DNA of 44,535 nt from Prevotella sp. (GCA_016286575.1 JAEETB010000005.1:1-44535); one strand, 5' to 3'. Counted from the stretch's first letter, positions 9,689-20,011 are shown. Program-made: numbers and translations. Notes: generated by a model not told the origin, from the sequence alone.

Positions 9689-12034
9689 ATGAAACGTATT
9701 CTTATAATAATTGTCCTCCTGGTGGGCATCATCTCTAAGACGGATGCTGTCCTGAAGGAGAAAGACCTGGAGCAGACACTGACAATTCTTCAGGCCGAAC
9801 TGGAACAGTACAACAACGAACTGAGCCGTCGCTCTACCATGCGAAAAGAGCGCACGAAGCAACTCATCACACAGTTGCTGCTGACCATGAAGCAAGCCGA
9901 CCAGAATGCGCTGATGCTCTATTCTCAGCATCAAGAGAACGTATTCGACATGACCTATGCTTGTCATGAAGCCACCAAACTGTACCGCGATTTCCACAAA
10001 CGTCAAATACCTTTCACAGAGTTTCTGGAAAAGAACGGAAGGGAGTTAGCTCGGTATGACAGTCTCATCACACGTCTCGAGGCCATGCCGGAAATCATGA
10101 CCACAAAGTACGGCAAGTCGAAACGAGACTCTTGTCTAGCACTTGCCAAAAGCATCCGTCGCATGCTGGGCGAAAGTGAATATCAACTGAAACGGAATAT
10201 ACATCATTATAATCACACAGAACAAAGACTGAGCGAGTTGAACAACTATGCCCAGAAACGCTATAGCGACATACAACAAAGCATCTTTATCAACGGCGAC
10301 GAGAGCTACCCCACCCTGCTGAGTCATTTCAAAAGACGTTGGAGCTCAATCACAGAAACTATCCAAAAAAAATATACAACCGGATCCCCATCCAATTCTC
10401 AATGGAGCGGCAGATGGATTATATTCACATTCTCTGCCATTCTGTTTTACATCATCATCGCCATTGTCCTAAACCAGCTGTTCTTCCGATTCATGATGCC
10501 CAAGCGGCTCGATACCGAAGAATTCCGAAAGAAACGGGCCTGCATCATCATGGCCACTACGACCATCACCTTCGCCATTATCCAGGGAGCCATCAGCGTC
10601 ATTGGCACAGGGCAGAACTATCCATTCCTCTATATGGCGTCGAACTTGCTGGTGGAGTATGCCTGGCTTCTGGGTGTCATTCTGATTTCATTGCTATTGC
10701 GCGTCAAAGGTGAGCAGATTGGCAGTGCATTTCGCATTTACGCGCCGCTGATTGTTGTTGGCTTTATAGTTATTGGATGCCGTATCATTCTGATACCCAA
10801 CGAACTTGTTAATTTCATTCTACCACCAGTTTTACTGATATGCGCAATCTGGCAATGGATTGTTATCAGACGTCACAACTCAAACATTCCACGCTCAGAC
10901 ATTTTCTATACTTACGTATCACTTGTGGTGTTCGTTGCTGCTGTCTGTTGCTCGTGGGCAGGATATACGTTACTTGCTGTACAACTGCTCATCTGGTGGA
11001 TCATGCAGCTGACTTGCATTTTGACCATTACCTGTGTCAGTCAGTATCTCAGACTCTATGCCGAACGGAAAGGATTTGATCAGAAGCCCATCACCCAGAC
11101 ATGGGCCTACAACTTTGTCGAGAAAGTGGTGATGCCTGTATTGAGCGTAAATTCTGTCATGCTGAGTATCTACTGGGCAGCAAAGGTATTTAATTTAAGC
11201 GAACTATGCTGGAAGATTTTTAAGTACAATTTTATTGACATGGAGAATCTTCAGGTTTCCGTCTTGAAACTCTCAATGGTCATTACCATGTGGTGCCTCT
11301 TCCGATGGATCGCCCGCACCATTCTTGCCTTGTTGCGCGTACACTACGAGACCAGTGATCCCACAACTGCAGCCTCAAGGGAAGTCATGGGAAAGAACGT
11401 GATACAAGTCTTTGTCTGGGGTGTGTGGTTGATGATTTCGCTCTCACTATTCCACATCAGCGTCACTTGGCTGCTCGCCATTTCTGGTGGTCTATCCACC
11501 GGTATCGGTTTCGCATCAAAGGATATCATTGAAAACATTTACTACGGCGCCTCACTGATGGCAGGTCGCATCAAAGTTGGTGACTGGATAGAGATTGACG
11601 GACGCATGGGTAAGGTGATGAGCATCAGTTACACCTCGACCGTAATAGAATCACTTTATGGTGAGGTAATCACCTTCCAAAACGCACAACTCTTCGCGAA
11701 GAATTATAAAAATCTGACGAGGAATCACGGTTATGTTCTGGCCGTAGTACCATTTGGAGTAGCCTATGGTTCTAACCTAAAACAGGTCACGGAACTCATA
11801 GAGGGGGCACTGAACAACATGAAACACCAATGGATAGACCGCTCAAAACAGGTGAAGTGTGTCGTTTCTGAAATGGCTGATTCGAGTGTAAACTTCAATC
11901 TTTTTGTCTGGGCTGATGCTCCCAAGAAATCGTACGTGGTCAGCGACGTTTTGAAGTGTGTATACGAAACACTGAACGAGCATAACATTACTATCCCGTT
12001 CCCACAAAGAGACATTCATGTCATTAAAGATTAA
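9689..12034 (+). CDS. MscS-family mechanosensitive ion channel with N-terminal coiled-coil
   Basis: 781 aa; C-terminal MscS core (LAISGGLSTGIGFASKDIIENIYYGASLMAGRIKVGDWIEIDGRMGKVMSISYTSTVIESLYGEVITFQNAQLFAKNYKNLTR). Confidence 0.92.
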   Translation: MKRILIIIVLLVGIISKTDAVLKEKDLEQTLTILQAELEQYNNELSRRSTMRKERTKQLITQLLLTMKQADQNALMLYSQHQENVFDMTYACHEATKLYRDFHKRQIPFTEFLEKNGRELARYDSLITRLEAMPEIMTTKYGKSKRDSCLALAKSIRRMLGESEYQLKRNIHHYNHTEQRLSELNNYAQKRYSDIQQSIFINGDESYPTLLSHFKRRWSSITETIQKKYTTGSPSNSQWSGRWIIFTFSAILFYIIIAIVLNQLFFRFMMPKRLDTEEFRKKRACIIMATTTITFAIIQGAISVIGTGQNYPFLYMASNLLVEYAWLLGVILISLLLRVKGEQIGSAFRIYAPLIVVGFIVIGCRIILIPNELVNFILPPVLLICAIWQWIVIRRHNSNIPRSDIFYTYVSLVVFVAAVCCSWAGYTLLAVQLLIWWIMQLTCILTITCVSQYLRLYAERKGFDQKPITQTWAYNFVEKVVMPVLSVNSVMLSIYWAAKVFNLSELCWKIFKYNFIDMENLQVSVLKLSMVITMWCLFRWIARTILALLRVHYETSDPTTAASREVMGKNVIQVFVWGVWLMISLSLFHISVTWLLAISGGLSTGIGFASKDIIENIYYGASLMAGRIKVGDWIEIDGRMGKVMSISYTSTVIESLYGEVITFQNAQLFAKNYKNLTRNHGYVLAVVPFGVAYGSNLKQVTELIEGALNNMKHQWIDRSKQVKCVVSEMADSSVNFNLFVWADAPKKSYVVSDVLKCVYETLNEHNITIPFPQRDIHVIKD

Positions 12035-12049
12035 AAAAATTGTATTTTT

Positions 12050-12081
12050 TTTGGTTGTTTTGAATAAAATGCGTATTTTTG
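12050..12081 (+). promoter_or_regulatory. Promoter of kdsA operon: TTTG-N20-TATTTTTG
   Basis: TTTG at 12050-12053, 20-nt spacer, TATTTTTG at 12074-12081, 10 bp upstream of the kdsA ATG. Confidence 0.7.
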
Positions 12082-12091
12082 CAACATCATT

Positions 12092-12856
12092 ATGAGTAGC
12101 AAAACAACCATTATAGCTGGTCCATGTGTCATCGAGTCGGCAGAACTGCTCGACACAGTGGCGCGTAAGTTGGTGGAAATCAACACCAAACTAGGTACCG
12201 ATATCATTTTCAAAGCCTCGTTTGACAAGGCGAATCGTACATCAATCCATTCCTTCCGAGGCCCAGGACTTGAACGTGGACTGCAGATGCTGGCTGACGT
12301 GAAAGCCAACTATGGCCTCAGGATTCTAACCGACATCCATGAGAGTTATCAGGCAGAGCCAGTCAGTGAAGTATGCGATGTGATCCAGATTCCAGCCTTC
12401 CTTTGCCGTCAGACTGACCTGCTTGTCGCTGCCGCCAAGACTGGACGGACAGTGAATATCAAAAAGGCACAATTTCTTAGTGGGCTCGACATGCGTTATC
12501 CTGTTGAAAAAGCTCTTGATTCAGGTGCGAAGGATGTCTGGCTGACTGAACGCGGCAATATGATGGGTTACAACAACCTTGTGGTCGATTTCCGTAATAT
12601 CCCCGATATGTTGGAGTTGGTACCTACGGTTATCATGGACTGTACACATAGCGTACAACGGCCTGGCGGGTCTGATGGTAAAACAGGCGGTGATCGGAGA
12701 TTTGTACCACAAATGGCAATGGCGGCAAAAGCCTTTGGAGCTAATGGATTTTTCTTTGAGGTACATCCTCATCCAGACGAAGGTCTCAGTGATGCTGCAA
12801 ACATGTTGGAGCTCGACCATCTGGAAGCTCTGGTTGAAAAACTGATTAAAGCATGA
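12092..12856 (+). CDS. kdsA: 3-deoxy-8-phosphooctulonate synthase
   Basis: 254 aa; IAGPCVIES, FKASFDKANRTS, DCTHSVQRPGG, FFEVHPHPDEGLSDAANML. Confidence 0.97.
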   Translation: MSSKTTIIAGPCVIESAELLDTVARKLVEINTKLGTDIIFKASFDKANRTSIHSFRGPGLERGLQMLADVKANYGLRILTDIHESYQAEPVSEVCDVIQIPAFLCRQTDLLVAAAKTGRTVNIKKAQFLSGLDMRYPVEKALDSGAKDVWLTERGNMMGYNNLVVDFRNIPDMLELVPTVIMDCTHSVQRPGGSDGKTGGDRRFVPQMAMAAKAFGANGFFFEVHPHPDEGLSDAANMLELDHLEALVEKLIKA

Positions 12857-13803
12857 AGGAAGCTAAAGAATACGCTATACAATGTTTCAAGGACGAAGCA
12901 GAAGCTGTGCTGGGCCTTGTCTCACAACTTGATGACAGTTTTGACAAAGCTGTTGAATTAATGTATGGGTGCAAGGGGAAAATCATCGTCACTGGCGTAG
13001 GCAAGAGCGGACACATCGGCGCAAAGATTGCCGCTACCCTTTCAAGCACAGGCACACCATCATTCTTCATTAATCCACTCGACGTGTTCCATGGCGACTT
13101 GGGGGTAATGACTTCCGACGATGTGGTGCTGGCTATTTCTCATTCAGGACAGACTGACGAGCTTCTGAGGTTTATACCAATGGTTTTGCAGATGCAGATA
13201 CCCATCATTGGCATGAGCGGGAATCCGCAGTCACTTTTGGCTAAATATTCGACTTGTCACCTGAATGTGTACGTCGAAAAAGAAGCCTGTCCGATGAACC
13301 TCGCTCCTACAAGTTCCACCATGGCACAATTGGCAATGGGTGATGCTTTGGCAATTGCGTTAATTGAGAAGCGAGATTTCCAGCCCAGGGACTTCGCACA
13401 GTTTCATCCTGGTGGTGAACTCGGAAAACGACTGTTGACGACAGCACAGGATGTGATGTTTAAAGATGACCTGCCCGTACTCCCACCAGAGATGCATTTA
13501 GGCGAGGCTATTATCCTGGTGAGCAAAGGAAAACTCGGACTGGGTATTGCTGAGGTAGATGATAAAATTGTGGGACTGATCACTGACGGTGATATCCGTC
13601 GCGCTATGGAGAAGTGGCAGGCGGAATTCTTCAACCGAACGGTAAGCGACATCATGACACGCACTCCCAAGACCGTCAGACCAGAGACAAAGATTACGGA
13701 AATTCAGAGAATCATGAATAAATATAAAGTACATTCGGTGTTAGTGATCGATGAAGAGAACCACCTTCTGGGGGTAGTTGACCACTACTCGTGTATGATA
13801 TAA
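12853..13803 (+). CDS. kdsD: KpsF/GutQ-type D-arabinose-5-phosphate isomerase (SIS + CBS)
   Basis: 316 aa; GVGKSGHIGAKIAATLSSTGTPSFFINPLDVFHGDLG, SHSGQTDEL, two CBS domains; ATGA overlap with kdsA. Confidence 0.95.
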   Translation: MKEAKEYAIQCFKDEAEAVLGLVSQLDDSFDKAVELMYGCKGKIIVTGVGKSGHIGAKIAATLSSTGTPSFFINPLDVFHGDLGVMTSDDVVLAISHSGQTDELLRFIPMVLQMQIPIIGMSGNPQSLLAKYSTCHLNVYVEKEACPMNLAPTSSTMAQLAMGDALAIALIEKRDFQPRDFAQFHPGGELGKRLLTTAQDVMFKDDLPVLPPEMHLGEAIILVSKGKLGLGIAEVDDKIVGLITDGDIRRAMEKWQAEFFNRTVSDIMTRTPKTVRPETKITEIQRIMNKYKVHSVLVIDEENHLLGVVDHYSCMI

Positions 13804-13823: not shown

Positions 13824-16800
13824 ATGAAGACTATAAAGAAACTATTGATTGTGTTACTGCTCACTCTGCCTCTGGTTGTGGCAGCTGACTATCTGTTTAA
13901 AACACTGGATGCACGCGACGGTCTGACATCCAGTCAGGTGAACTGTATATTAAAAGATTCGCGGGGATACATCTGGTTTGGTACTCCAGCAGGGCTCTAT
14001 CGCTACGACGGTTACTCGTTCAGGAACTTCCAGAGTGACTCACAAGATGGTTCATCACTTAACGACAGCTATATCAATGCCATCCAGGAAATGCTCGATG
14101 GTAACCTATTAATCCAAACCTCTTCAGGCTATTGCATCTATCACCCTCAGACAGAAACGTTTGAGCGCGATATGAAGCAGACTTTTGCACGCATGGGTAT
14201 TGAAACGATTCCTTCCATCGTATACATCGACAGACATAAAAATCTCTGGGGAGCCATTCCCAACAAAGGCGTTGTGTGTTACAACCAGCAACAACAGCTA
14301 CTTTACGAATTCGGCTATACCGATGACGCACACGGAGTGCCTCAGGGGGTTGTGTGCTCCATCAGCGAATGCCGAGATGGTGCCATTATCGTATACGATG
14401 ACGGACGTATGGTCTGCTGTGATGTAATGCATCAGCAACATACCGTGTGGGCTGCAGAAGGTATCCCTACGCTGAAACGTCACAGATCAAAATCACTTAG
14501 AGCATTCTCTGATCAGATGGATAATATCTGGCTCTATGGACAGGGGACCTTATATATGTATAACAAGAGTTCCGACGCCTGGGAATCATCTATCGGTGAA
14601 CAGTTAGGACTGACGAATGTTGGTGTCGACCGTAATATCAATAGCATGGCTGGTGACCGTAACGGCAACATTTGGATAGGCTCTGACCAGCTAGGCCTTT
14701 TGAAGATGGATGTCAACACCCACCAGATTGAAAACGTACAACCTCGTAATATCAATGATAACCAATTGGCAAAGGATAATATAGGAATCCAGAGCGTTTA
14801 CGTGGATGACACGGATCTACTATGGGTAGGAACAGAAAAATCTGGCGTAGCTTACTCTGGTGACTATATCTATCGTTTTGGTTCCAACCTTTTAGGTGAT
14901 ATCACAGCGATGACACAGGATGCCAATGGTAAGATTTGGTATGGTACGAGTGATCGTGGCATCATCGACTATACGGGACAACTTGCTAGTTTGAAGGTTT
15001 CTTGTATGGAGACTACACCTGATGGCAGCCTTTGGGTAGGTTCCAAACGCAATGGACTGACCAGGATCAATAATAGCGGCTCTACGATCTTCTCATTAGC
15101 GAAGGATAGCATCAGCACCCTGATAGATGATCATGTAAACGACTTGTGTGTAGATAAGATCGGAAATCTGTGGATTGCCACCAATGGAGGTCTTCAGGTG
15201 TACAATCCGAGAATGAACTCTTTCTCATCCTACACCCGAGAGAACGGCAAGCTAAATACTAACAATATTACTTGTCTCTTCTATAACAAGAACGGCAAAG
15301 AGAATATTATGTTTGCCGGTACAGCTGAGGGACTAGTCATCTTGAATCTGTCGAATACAGAGAAGAAGGTGGTAACAGGAAACTCCAACAACATCAAAAC
15401 TTTCACGAATAACTATATTACACAGGTATTCCAAGACTCAAGAGGGTTAATTTGGGTAGGAACACGCGAAGGTTTGAACATTCTTAATATGGATACCGAC
15501 GACCTTGACTATCTGACAGAGAAACAAGGTCTTTGCAACAATAACGTCTGCGGAATAGCCGAAGACAAGAATCACAGTATCTGGGTAACCACCAGCCGAG
15601 GTGTGAGCCGCATCGTGGTACAGCGTAACCATGAGGATGGCACGAACAACTACGGTCTGTACAATTACAGCACCTCTGATGGCCTTCAGAGCAATGAGTT
15701 CAATCACGGTTCTATTCTGACTCGTGACGATGGTAATGTTCTACTGGGTGGTCTCTTTGGCGTGAATTGGGTCATCCAGAAAGGCAACGACGATAACGAC
15801 GCCCTGCCCCGTGTGATGCTAACCCAGTTGTATATCGGAGAAGAGGAAATCCTCACTGGCCACGAGTATGGCGATAGAGTCATACTGCCACAGGCTCTTA
15901 ATGAGACTAACAAGATTAACCTGGGCCATGACCAGAACACCTTCACTATCAAGTTTGCAGCAGGAAACTATAACCAAAGTGAGCGTCTGCAATTCATGTA
16001 CTGGATGGAAGGAAAAGATGAGGACTGGCGTAATGGTAATGCCCTTACCCACGGAGTGACATTTAAAGATCTCAGTAGTGGCAAATATACCCTCCATGTA
16101 AAAGCTATCAGTGCCGAAGGTGCTGTCAGCAACCAAGAACGTGTCCTGGAAATCGCGATTGAGCGTCACTGGCTATTATCATGGTGGATGATTGTTGCCT
16201 ACATTATCCTGGCTGTAGTCACCATTTACTTCTGGCGTATCGGACTTAAACAGATCAAGGCTATTCGTCAGAGAAAGAATGCGGTCATTAACGAACTAAA
16301 GTTGCAACGCGAAGAGATTAAGGCTGCCAGTGATGACCTTCGCCAGCCTATGGCCCGCATGACCTCAATCATTGGTAACCTGTCAGAGAAAGAAACCACA
16401 CTTGAGGAGAAGGAACAACTTAATGCTCTCCACTCTCAGATGCTCCAGATCATCACTCGAGTGGCCGATATGCAGATGAACCTGGAGAATCCTGAAGAGA
16501 AAGCCAAGAATACTGTTCAGGATCGACTTGAACTCAATGGAAAGGGTGAGATAGAGTTGCCTGAAATCGGTGACACCTTGACTGCTGAGAGTACACGTTC
16601 TAGAGCTGCCCTTGATTCACCAACCGCCAAGTTCACCGTTGTCATGATTGATGATAACGAGGACTTCCTGAAATTCGCCTCAGCTAAGTTGAAATACGTC
16701 TACGATTTCCATATCTACAATGATATCGAGAAAGCTGCAGATGATTTGGAAGAAATGAAATGTGATATCGTAGTATGTAAACAAGAGATGAGTCCTATGA

Positions 16801-17606
16801 CTGGTAGCGATCTCTGCAACCAGCTGAAGACAAATATTGTCACTCAAAAGATGAAGTTTGTGCTGATGACTGATGGTGTGCTAACACCTCAGGACATGCG
16901 TTCTAAGAACATCACTCTTTCTGCCGACGACTATCTCGCAAAGCCGTTTAACATGCAAGAAGCATGTATGCGTTTCAATAAAGTTCTTGGTTTAGGTGCC
17001 ATCAATGTAAACAGTAACCTGATTGAAGGTGCAGAAACCCGTATGCTGGAGGAACGTAACACAAGTATGACGACTGCTACTGAGAGTATGGGACTTGAGG
17101 TCATCCAAACTGATACCGATACAGAGACGACGAGTGATGACCCAATGAACATCGTCGATACAACTATCGTCAACAAGAACCAGTTGGCTCGCAAGGGTAG
17201 TAACTTGCCAGAGGGTATCTTGCCCGAGTATGAGAAAAGCGAGGAATCGACATCCGACTACTCAATGCTCGACGAGATGGATCAACAGCTGTTGAAGAAT
17301 ATCGAGCAGTACGTGATGCAGAACATGAGTCGAGGCCAGATTAGTCTTGAAGAAATGGCCAGCGCCATGGGTATGGGACGTGTTCCCTTCTTCCACCGCA
17401 TCCGAAACCTGACAAATAAGACACCTGCAGAGGTCGTGCGCGATATGCGTCTGAAACATGCTTGTATTCTTCTGAAACGTACCAATATCAACATGAGTGA
17501 GCTGGCAACAAACATTGGTTTCCTGACAGCAGAGAATTTCATTAATATTTTCAAGGAGAAATTTGGTATGACACCCCTTGAATACAGATTAAAACACCGC
17601 AAATGA
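13824..17606 (+). CDS. Degenerate hybrid two-component-like regulator (propeller repeats, Y_Y_Y, TM, pseudo-DHp, pseudo-receiver, AraC HTH)
   Basis: 1260 aa; repeated Reg_prop motifs (LKDSRGYIWFGTPAGLYRYDG, FQDSRGLIWVGTREGLNILN), TM near 16165-16230, DHp-like SDDLRQPMARM, REC-like VVMIDDNEDF...CDIVVCKQEMSP...ADDYLAKPF, C-terminal AraC (FINIFKEKFGMTPLEYRL). No HATPase_c N/G1/G2 boxes between DHp-like region and receiver. Confidence 0.9.
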   Translation: MKTIKKLLIVLLLTLPLVVAADYLFKTLDARDGLTSSQVNCILKDSRGYIWFGTPAGLYRYDGYSFRNFQSDSQDGSSLNDSYINAIQEMLDGNLLIQTSSGYCIYHPQTETFERDMKQTFARMGIETIPSIVYIDRHKNLWGAIPNKGVVCYNQQQQLLYEFGYTDDAHGVPQGVVCSISECRDGAIIVYDDGRMVCCDVMHQQHTVWAAEGIPTLKRHRSKSLRAFSDQMDNIWLYGQGTLYMYNKSSDAWESSIGEQLGLTNVGVDRNINSMAGDRNGNIWIGSDQLGLLKMDVNTHQIENVQPRNINDNQLAKDNIGIQSVYVDDTDLLWVGTEKSGVAYSGDYIYRFGSNLLGDITAMTQDANGKIWYGTSDRGIIDYTGQLASLKVSCMETTPDGSLWVGSKRNGLTRINNSGSTIFSLAKDSISTLIDDHVNDLCVDKIGNLWIATNGGLQVYNPRMNSFSSYTRENGKLNTNNITCLFYNKNGKENIMFAGTAEGLVILNLSNTEKKVVTGNSNNIKTFTNNYITQVFQDSRGLIWVGTREGLNILNMDTDDLDYLTEKQGLCNNNVCGIAEDKNHSIWVTTSRGVSRIVVQRNHEDGTNNYGLYNYSTSDGLQSNEFNHGSILTRDDGNVLLGGLFGVNWVIQKGNDDNDALPRVMLTQLYIGEEEILTGHEYGDRVILPQALNETNKINLGHDQNTFTIKFAAGNYNQSERLQFMYWMEGKDEDWRNGNALTHGVTFKDLSSGKYTLHVKAISAEGAVSNQERVLEIAIERHWLLSWWMIVAYIILAVVTIYFWRIGLKQIKAIRQRKNAVINELKLQREEIKAASDDLRQPMARMTSIIGNLSEKETTLEEKEQLNALHSQMLQIITRVADMQMNLENPEEKAKNTVQDRLELNGKGEIELPEIGDTLTAESTRSRAALDSPTAKFTVVMIDDNEDFLKFASAKLKYVYDFHIYNDIEKAADDLEEMKCDIVVCKQEMSPMTGSDLCNQLKTNIVTQKMKFVLMTDGVLTPQDMRSKNITLSADDYLAKPFNMQEACMRFNKVLGLGAINVNSNLIEGAETRMLEERNTSMTTATESMGLEVIQTDTDTETTSDDPMNIVDTTIVNKNQLARKGSNLPEGILPEYEKSEESTSDYSMLDEMDQQLLKNIEQYVMQNMSRGQISLEEMASAMGMGRVPFFHRIRNLTNKTPAEVVRDMRLKHACILLKRTNINMSELATNIGFLTAENFINIFKEKFGMTPLEYRLKHRK

Positions 17607-18838
17607 CAAGCAATAAGAACCAATTAGCAGGAATAGTCACCATACTATTCCTGCTGATTTCTCTCTATACTAAAGCACAAAGCAGCGATTCGCTTACCAT
17701 CAGTCAGATGCAAGAGATGGGCATTGTTTTCTCAGAGAACAATAACGTAGAGCTATTGATGTCGGGCAAAGAAAAGTTTGCAAGACTATTCGAGGACATC
17801 CGCCAAGCCAAACAAAGCGTCCATCTGGAGTATTTCAATTTCAGGAACGACTCTATCGCATCCTTACTCTTCGATATCCTCAGGGAAAAACGCAAGGAAG
17901 GCGTAGAGGTAAGAGCAGCTTTCGACGGATTCGGAAACGACTCCAACAATCAACCATTAAAAAAAGAACATCTTGACAAACTACACGCTGATAGCATTGA
18001 TATCTACGAATTTGATCCCATCAGATTTCCATGGATCAATCATATCTGGCCACGTGACCATCGGAAGATTGTTGTCATCGATGGGCATATCGCCTATACT
18101 GGTGGAATGAATGTGGCTGACTATTATATTGTGGGTACAGAACAGGTTGGTGAATGGCGGGATATGCACTGCCGCATTGAGGGTTCGGCCGTTAACGATC
18201 TGCAGAAAATATTCGTCAGATTCTGGAAGAAGTTGGCAAAGGAGGAATTGACTGACCCGAAATACTTCCAGGGAACGACCGCCGGCAACAAGATGGTGGG
18301 TATCGCCAACCGCGAGCCTCGTACGTCGAATGAGATCATGCGCCGATTCTATGTGAATGCACTCGACAACGCGAAGGACTCGGTGAAGATCATCAATCCC
18401 TACTTCATGCCTACAAACAAAGTCATCAAAGCCTTGAAACGATGTGCTGAACGCGGTGTAAAAATGGACATCTTGATTTCATCTAGATATGACGAGCCGT
18501 TGACACCAGACATCGTCATGTACAACATGAAGAAACTGATTAAGCGCGGAGCCCATGTATGGCGTTACCGTCCTGGTTTCCACCATTCTAAGATTATGAC
18601 TGTTGACGGTAAATTCTGTACCGTTGGCAGCACAAATCTTGATGCCCGCGGTCTACGTTATGATTATGAAGTCAACGCACTGATCATCGACAAACAGACA
18701 ACCCAAGAGTTAGACCGGAAATTCATCGAAGACACAGGTAAAAGCGACTATATCTCTATGGAGGAATGGAAGAAAAGCCGCACCACATGGCAAAGATTCA
18801 AAGGATGGTTTGGTCACCTGCTAACCTTCTTACTATAA
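17603..18838 (+). CDS. Phospholipase D / cardiolipin synthase-like protein with N-terminal signal peptide
   Basis: 411 aa; two HKD motifs (HRKIVVIDGHIAYTGGMN; HHSKIMTVDGKFCTVGSTNLD); signal-like N-terminus IVTILFLLISLYTKAQS; ATGA overlap with upstream gene. Confidence 0.88.
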   Translation: MTSNKNQLAGIVTILFLLISLYTKAQSSDSLTISQMQEMGIVFSENNNVELLMSGKEKFARLFEDIRQAKQSVHLEYFNFRNDSIASLLFDILREKRKEGVEVRAAFDGFGNDSNNQPLKKEHLDKLHADSIDIYEFDPIRFPWINHIWPRDHRKIVVIDGHIAYTGGMNVADYYIVGTEQVGEWRDMHCRIEGSAVNDLQKIFVRFWKKLAKEELTDPKYFQGTTAGNKMVGIANREPRTSNEIMRRFYVNALDNAKDSVKIINPYFMPTNKVIKALKRCAERGVKMDILISSRYDEPLTPDIVMYNMKKLIKRGAHVWRYRPGFHHSKIMTVDGKFCTVGSTNLDARGLRYDYEVNALIIDKQTTQELDRKFIEDTGKSDYISMEEWKKSRTTWQRFKGWFGHLLTFLL

Positions 18839-18841
18839 CAA

Positions 18842-20011
18842 ATGAAACGCGATACGACGATATCAATTTGCAAAGGCATTGCCATTATCTTGATGGTAAT
18901 AGCACATGCTGAAGCACCTGGCTGGCTCTGCAAATTCATCTTCGAGTTCCACATGCCATTATTCTTCATCACCGCTGGCTATTTCTTTTCACTGAAATAT
19001 CTCGATGACGAGGCAACCTTTGTCAAGAAACGCATCAAAGGACTCTACTGGCCTTTTGTAAAATGGTCTGTATTCTTCCTGATAATTCACAACTGGATGT
19101 TCGACATTGGGATTCTCAACGAGCGATATGGCAACGAAATGGGAGGTGTTACACATCCATATACATGGCATCAGATACAGCAGAATCTATGGAATATTTT
19201 CACAGCTATGGGAGGATATGACCAATTCCTATGTGGAGCTTTCTGGTTCTTCCGTGGATTATTTGTAGCAAGTATCCTATACCTTATATTATATAAGGTG
19301 TTAGATGTTGGCACAAACTACATGACTGCTAAGACGAATAAAGCATGGAAGGTAAAGGAAGCCATCCCTTACATGATTTGCCTGTTAATGCTCATCCTCT
19401 GTGGATGGAAAACACACGAGGGACTGAGAATTGTTACTCTCGTACAAGGAGGCTATCGTGATTTGATGGGCTGTTTCTTCTTTGGTTGTGGATTTATCTT
19501 CAGACATTATGTCGACAGATACAAACAGCTGACGTCTCGATACTATGCCTCTGTGTGGATAACTATACTCTTTGGAATTGTCGTCGGACTATTCTCCACG
19601 TATCTGACAGCTAACATGAACTGGCGTTCTACATATACCCAGTTCCTGTCATTACCCATCCCTGCCCTATTGGGATTCCTGATGACCTATAACATCAGTA
19701 GTTGGCTAGATAAGCATGAGGGGAGACTCAAGCAATTCCTTACCTACACAGGTGATCATACGCTCAATATCTTTATCTTCCACATCATCTCCTATAAAGT
19801 TGTCAGTCTCTTAAAAATATGGTACTACGGACTTGACATCCACCAGATAGGATGCCACATGGTAATCCACGAGTACTCTCAACAAGACTATTTCTGGATT
19901 CTATATACAATAGCAGGAGTAGGTATCCCACTCGGATTTACATGGCTCAACGATTGTATCAGAAAAAGAATCAGAGAATATAGAGCATCATCTGGATCTC
20001 AGGCTCACTGA
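18842..20011 (+). CDS. Acyltransferase family 3 membrane protein
   Basis: 389 aa, multi-TM; ISICKGIAIILMVIAHAEAP...FHMPLFFITAGYFF motif of acyltransferase_3. Confidence 0.87.
   Translation: MKRDTTISICKGIAIILMVIAHAEAPGWLCKFIFEFHMPLFFITAGYFFSLKYLDDEATFVKKRIKGLYWPFVKWSVFFLIIHNWMFDIGILNERYGNEMGGVTHPYTWHQIQQNLWNIFTAMGGYDQFLCGAFWFFRGLFVASILYLILYKVLDVGTNYMTAKTNKAWKVKEAIPYMICLLMLILCGWKTHEGLRIVTLVQGGYRDLMGCFFFGCGFIFRHYVDRYKQLTSRYYASVWITILFGIVVGLFSTYLTANMNWRSTYTQFLSLPIPALLGFLMTYNISSWLDKHEGRLKQFLTYTGDHTLNIFIFHIISYKVVSLLKIWYYGLDIHQIGCHMVIHEYSQQDYFWILYTIAGVGIPLGFTWLNDCIRKRIREYRASSGSQAH

Follow-up and report, generated by a model that had tools for sequence, protein, structure and literature searches.

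The window analysed here, the whole stretch of 44,535 nucleotides from Prevotella sp. (GCA_016286575.1 JAEETB010000005.1:1-44535), carries a gene with the layout of a hybrid two-component regulator (HTCS) that lies between a kdsD-type gene and a cardiolipin synthase gene. We refer to it as the pseudo-HTCS. Throughout the window we found no tRNA and no Rfam match. The features discussed below are as follows.

9689-12034, plus strand: MscS-type mechanosensitive channel, at the head of the conserved cluster
12092-12856, plus strand: kdsA, Kdo-8-phosphate synthase
12853-13803, plus strand: kdsD-type arabinose-5-phosphate isomerase, ending 20 bp upstream of the pseudo-HTCS
13824-17606, plus strand: pseudo-HTCS gene, 1260 codons, with 80 full-length orthologs
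13887-16160, plus strand: periplasmic sensor, residues 22-779, Reg_prop propellers and Y_Y_Y (Pfam, PDB, AF2/Foldseek)
15966-16160, plus strand: Y_Y_Y, residues 715-779 (Pfam)
16176-16241, plus strand: single TM helix, residues ~785-806, running on into the cytoplasmic helix (sequence; AF2)
16305-16478, plus strand: pseudo-DHp hairpin, residues 828-885, the most conserved segment (conservation, dN/dS, AF2, hhalign)
16332-16334, plus strand: D837, at the phospho-acceptor His position (102-row alignment; canonical-His alignment)
16632-16973, plus strand: pseudo-receiver, residues 937-1050 (Response_reg; AF2 REC fold; Foldseek)
16779-16781, plus strand: K986, replacing the acceptor Asp directly after invariant C985 (102/102 rows)
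16845-16856, plus strand: Q-K-M-K (1008-1011), at the place of the HTCS-receiver S/CHIP motif (alignment to 12aw)
17019-17081, plus strand: conserved motif I-E-G-x-E-T-R-M-L-E-x-x-N-x-S-M-T-T-A-T, opening the REC-HTH linker
17265-17603, plus strand: AraC-type HTH, residues 1148-1260 (HTH_18; column entropy 0.54)
17603-18838, plus strand: cardiolipin synthase (cls), its start overlapping the pseudo-HTCS stop by 4 bp
18842-20011, plus strand: acyltransferase family 3, with a homolog in 48/80 loci

Pfam (Reg_prop 110 bits, Y_Y_Y 40, Response_reg 42, HTH_18 56) and AF2 together recover the HTCS layout described in the earlier note: two propellers and Y_Y_Y precede the single TM helix, and a DHp-like hairpin, a receiver fold and the AraC HTH follow it. 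The periplasmic sensor matches PDB 4a2l at 1.7e-61, and an AF2 model of this region (765 aa, pLDDT 76.9) finds the same structure, the heparin-sensing HTCS BT4663, as its best Foldseek match (E 4e-42). For residues 780-1260, AF2 predicts a long helix that runs from the TM segment into the hairpin (helices 4-76 and 81-106 of the model), then a full receiver fold joined to the HTH through a disordered linker, with Foldseek matches to receivers and AraC HTHs (REC TM-score to target up to 0.88); at a mean pLDDT of 72.5 and a pTM of 0.32, the arrangement of the cytoplasmic domains is not readable from this model. Past its conserved opening motif the REC-HTH linker is variable and disordered (low AF2 pLDDT). 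The best NCBIfam match, PorZ of the T9SS, was rejected at 87 bits against a curated cut-off of 260, as was homology to PorZ as an LPS sensor, the match being a generic one that other propeller proteins of the same genome exceed (90-106 bits).

In terms of protein class, the pseudo-HTCS has the Reg_prop/Y_Y_Y sensor and C-terminal AraC-type HTH of HTCSs, and lacks three of their defining features: the acceptor His, HATPase_c and the acceptor Asp. By combining, in a single chain, a TM segment with a DNA-binding domain and one or more two-component core domains, it qualifies as a hybrid transmembrane transcription regulator, and its Response_reg profile match without the conserved acceptor Asp is that of a pseudo-receiver (PsR/ALR).

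The earlier note had proposed that the DHp His is replaced by Asp at codon 837 and the receiver acceptor Asp by Lys at codon 986, and that no HATPase_c domain is present, and each of these losses is borne out. In the translated ORF D837 sits in S-D-D-L-R-Q-P-M and K986 in D-I-V-V-C-K. When the profiles of 13 pseudo-DHps and 8 canonical DHps from the same genome and its congeners were compared with hhalign, SDDLRQPM aligned over SHELRTPL (E 3.9e-05), with D837 falling exactly on the canonical His and the adjoining acid, Arg and Pro retained. In Pfam, HisKA reached 14.6 bits, short of its cut-off (26.9), and HATPase_c did not appear at E<=0.1. As a control, an identical scan of five further HTCSs encoded by this genome gave 87-100 bits for HATPase_c, 44-58 for HisKA and 83-91 for Response_reg, so the search was sensitive enough and the absence of HATPase_c is real. 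Likewise, HATPase_c is not among the Pfam families matched by at least two of 52 members of the pseudo-HTCS family, while Response_reg and HTH_18 are matched by 52/52. A HATPase_c domain is ~110 residues long, and the ~50 residues (886-936) between the hairpin end and the receiver leave no room for one. The profile searches thus detected neither a hidden HATPase_c nor a phospho-His, either of which the earlier note would have taken as refuting its reading. A shifted phospho-acceptor at the invariant H870 was considered and rejected, as at this helix-2 position a His is likewise found in the HTCS L003 (RNAHRLL; by eye). Without HATPase_c autophosphorylation is impossible, and without His and Asp there is no His-Asp phosphorelay; with all of these absent, the pseudo-HTCS can neither autophosphorylate nor carry a His-Asp phosphorelay.

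The receiver has also lost a feature that lies outside the phosphotransfer residues. In Bacteroides HTCSs the S/CHIP motif, in the alpha3-beta4 loop, touches the DNA-binding domain and holds it off DNA until phosphorylation, and its mutation in BT4124 leads to phosphorylation-independent DNA binding (PMC11253607). This motif is present in 4/5 of the control HTCSs and absent from the pseudo-HTCS. With Asp and His lost and S/CHIP replaced, both the phospho-switch and its lock are gone.

A species-representative genome scan gave the 80 full-length orthologs, at 62-97% identity, in Prevotella/Xylanibacter and mostly from the rumen; the pseudo-HTCS was found in 22/60 sampled genomes of the genus. 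Two overlapping ortholog collections provided 102 aligned rows, with 94 distinct sequences among them. The residue at 837 is D in 79/102 rows, E in 23/102 and H in none. C985 and K986 are invariant, with K986 encoded by both AAA and AAG, and its presence in isolate genomes as well (for example L053 Xylanibacter ruminicola Ga6B6, L037, L038, L057, L063, L072 and L103) excludes a MAG assembly artefact. The changes are not due to chance, and the possibility that they are unique to one strain, named in the earlier note as grounds for rejecting its reading, is not what we find. That note also had the DD pair, the Thr and the KPF Lys surviving, and D943, D944, T1016 and K1040 are indeed present in the window protein; D943, T1016 and K1040 proved invariant, but position 944 is D in only 70/102 rows and S, N or T in 32/102. 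Elsewhere in the receiver Y1037 is kept in 98/102 rows, the T+1 residue (1017) is acidic in 101/102, K1011 occurs in 100/102 and F1012 is invariant. The two cysteines of the pseudo-receiver, C985 (16776-16778), which directly precedes K986, and C998 (16815-16817), are unchanged across the 102 rows.

Conservation is highest in the pseudo-DHp and the HTH. Mean column entropy is 0.52 bits in the pseudo-DHp and 0.54 in the HTH, compared with 1.07 in REC and 1.90 in the REC-HTH linker. Median dN/dS (Nei-Gojobori, over measurable pairs, and approximate given that dS is saturated in many of them) is 0.058 for the whole gene, 0.025 for the pseudo-DHp, 0.030 for the HTH, 0.051 for REC and 0.053 for the periplasmic domain, so that the pseudo-DHp is lowest and the HTH next; against the nearest ortholog, L035 (dS 0.78), the ratio for the entire gene is 0.019. 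The dN/dS values and the invariance of the altered residues together uphold the proposal that the intact ORF is under selection. The phosphorylation-dead state is fixed and strongly conserved within one Prevotella clade of at least 80 species.

The order kdsD - pseudo-HTCS - cls is found in 80/80 loci, the pseudo-HTCS usually starting 5-24 bp past kdsD and its stop often overlapping the cls start, with kdsA at 78/80 loci and the MscS-type gene at 66/80, where contig ends may account for some absences. The Kdo (LPS) operon serves an outer-membrane component that is essential. The pseudo-HTCS lies outside any PUL, although a PUL link is usual (if not strictly defining) for HTCSs. Congeners with no copy have kdsD next to cls (14/14), which identifies the pseudo-HTCS as a clade-specific insertion. 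Among 294 genomes from 178 genera of the order, with the best few candidates per genome scored, no further copy was found beyond the genus at E<=1e-30, and one gain within the genus is the simplest reading. A promoter-like TTTGG-n19-TATTTTTGCA, of the -33/-7 Bacteroidota type, lies at 12050-12083 just upstream of kdsA; it is conserved with nearly fixed spacing in 35/77 loci, and comparable promoters also occur in genomes without the pseudo-HTCS. Footprinting upstream of mscS and kdsA identified no operator, and operon position alone is no proof that the operon is the target of the pseudo-HTCS.

In a tree of the sensor region the pseudo-HTCS family forms one clade (support 100), sister to a clan of GH31-linked HTCSs with a support of 86 in what is a quick tree with long branches elsewhere; the GH31 label of the neighbouring genes was assigned by inspection, without Pfam. 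This clan includes full HTCSs of 1350-1411 aa and several reduced forms, in which the sensor is joined to HATPase_c alone, to a short tail alone, or to a pseudo-DHp and AraC HTH without REC or HATPase_c. To the first of these belong L002, from the same genome as the pseudo-HTCS (contig C117, 1-2091), and L156-L167; in these propeller/Y_Y_Y/TM proteins HATPase_c is present (64-75 bits where scanned), and the DHp His, a receiver and an HTH are absent.

We also observed a second kinase-less family (L184-L191, in eight genomes), with the order sensor, TM, pseudo-DHp hairpin and AraC HTH. Its motifs (NEELRQPF, SDEMRRPF, SDELRLSF, TDEMRSSF, SDNLRHSF, TKELSEPF and NDELHQPF) replace the phospho-His by E, D, N or K, an acid in most. 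Since this family nests among kinase-bearing HTCSs, its His replacement appears to have arisen independently of that in the pseudo-HTCS. Here the hairpin is the sole connection between TM and HTH, which provides the best available argument that such a hairpin can transmit a signal mechanically.

These observations enable us to propose a model for the pseudo-HTCS. We consider it likely, from its sequence and predicted fold, to be a phosphorylation-independent, membrane-anchored transcription factor derived from a hybrid two-component regulator, whose hairpin would couple the sensor to the HTH. In this model, a ligand or a change in envelope state would alter the dimeric propeller/Y_Y_Y sensor, and the resulting movement would travel along the continuous TM-pseudo-DHp helix. 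The hairpin, which probably dimerises into a four-helix bundle, would then act together with a locked pseudo-receiver to set the spacing or availability of the HTH pair. K986, which is charged and lies close to D943 and to the acid at 1017, probably locks the receiver in one conformation and turns it into a scaffold; conversely, conservation of T1016 and Y1037 (the Y-T coupling residues) and of K1040 could mean that the receiver still switches between two states. Its targets would probably be envelope genes, among them the Kdo/cardiolipin operon. Signalling by conformation, as the earlier note proposed, is what we infer, and the apparently independent origin of a second kinase-less family strengthens this. 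More tentatively, and with slightly less than even confidence, we suggest that two separate Prevotella lineages have turned HTCSs into mechanical TM transcription factors through a His swap (usually to an acid) and ATPase loss, one of them with a Lys-locked structural receiver, which would now couple an envelope signal to Kdo/cardiolipin expression without phosphorylation.

It could be argued that the gene is simply decaying, an HTCS in the process of being lost whose ORF is open by chance, given the degenerate state of several domains and the series of truncated HTCS relatives in the genus. The measured purifying selection refutes this: dN/dS is ~0.02-0.06 with its minimum precisely in the degenerate DHp, all 94 distinct sequences are intact, the altered residues do not vary and synteny holds throughout, leaving this reading almost no chance of being correct. 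A split system, in which ATP-driven control would come from a second polypeptide within a heterodimer, for example the propeller-HATPase_c protein L002, is very unlikely. Within its own genome the pseudo-HTCS has its closest paralog in L002 (205 bits against 101 for the runner-up), which brings a HATPase_c without HisKA, REC or HTH, and reduced GH31-linked relatives occur in 16/22 genomes with the pseudo-HTCS and in 0/38 without it (Fisher 5e-10). However, the tree groups the L002 type with the GH31-linked full HTCSs and apart from the pseudo-HTCS clade, the co-occurrence is confounded by common ancestry, which may explain it, the reduced relatives are missing from 6/22 genomes (some incomplete), and no acceptor His or Asp remains for phosphotransfer.

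Two further explanations retain the protein as a functional regulator. Control of the receiver by other chemistry at C985-K986 (lysine acylation, thiol modification or small-molecule binding), with a hairpin that merely dimerises, would account for the invariance of C985, K986 and C998, and ligand binding or redox governs other pseudo-receivers (PMC12632262, PMC5965902). We nevertheless regard this as unlikely, as the receiver is less constrained than the hairpin. The protein might instead be a constitutive DNA-binding repressor or activator with the sensor as a membrane tether only; loss of the inhibitory S/CHIP, whose mutation frees BT4124 (PMC11253607), would be compatible with this. The strong constraint on the periplasmic domain suggests sensing, and makes a constitutive binder distinctly improbable.

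Several known systems come close to the pseudo-HTCS. It shares the propeller/Y_Y_Y sensor, TM and DHp-receiver-AraC order of Bacteroides HTCSs such as BT4663, and differs from them in having no acceptor His, HATPase_c, acceptor Asp, S/CHIP lock or PUL setting. In BT4236 the DHp His is replaced by Gln (Q848) and a phosphorylation-independent mechanism has been suggested, the features reported for this and other non-consensus HTCSs being only the His change and a CSIP-EK contact motif (PMC11253607); the pseudo-HTCS has additionally lost the ATPase and Asp, and this state is fixed clade-wide. Pseudo-receivers, or aspartate-less receivers, likewise keep the fold without the acceptor Asp, and share the pattern of a retained first acidic residue, Thr and Lys with a variable second acid, although Lys is seldom found in place of the Asp (4% of ALRs for Arg, Lys and His combined; PMC12632262, PMC4395418). 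Relative to these, the pseudo-HTCS keeps the Y-T coupling residues and has receiver and pseudo-DHp united in a single membrane protein. In the parts of the work on DivL-type pseudo-histidine kinases considered here (PMC4211667), kinase function is abandoned and the domain kept for signalling; the pseudo-HTCS lacks the ATPase domain itself and carries its output HTH on the same polypeptide. The combination of TM, DNA-binding and two-component core domains is shared with hybrid transmembrane transcription regulators, and the passages of their survey considered here sort proteins by domain content and are silent on missing catalytic residues (PMC10269533). Within the open-licence literature we found no HTCS described as having lost His, HATPase_c and Asp together. 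Single defects are already known, from pseudo-receivers and BT4236; what appears new, no earlier description having been found, is the fixed combination. The Kdo/cardiolipin setting, loss of S/CHIP, restriction to one clade and partial loss of D944 go beyond the earlier note.

The pseudo-HTCS offers a natural separation of function, in which all known phosphotransfer chemistry has gone and the DHp hairpin is still the most constrained part, and it makes the mechanical role of DHp and receiver folds directly testable. Control of pseudo-receivers has been described as unsolved (PMC12632262). An HTCS-derived regulator is here placed within a Kdo (LPS) operon rather than a glycan-use locus, and counts of HTCSs by sensor domain overestimate the number of phosphorylating systems in Prevotella.

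Among the reduced relatives, the propeller/Y_Y_Y/TM proteins L177 (7593-10199, plus strand), L178 (11519-14134, minus strand) and L169 have a cytoplasmic tail of only ~40 residues. These short-tail proteins share with the HATPase_c type an acidic peptide at the C terminus that approximates (I/V)EEAV(L/I)MDDE, and in genomes G037 and G031 one type lies in tandem with the other.
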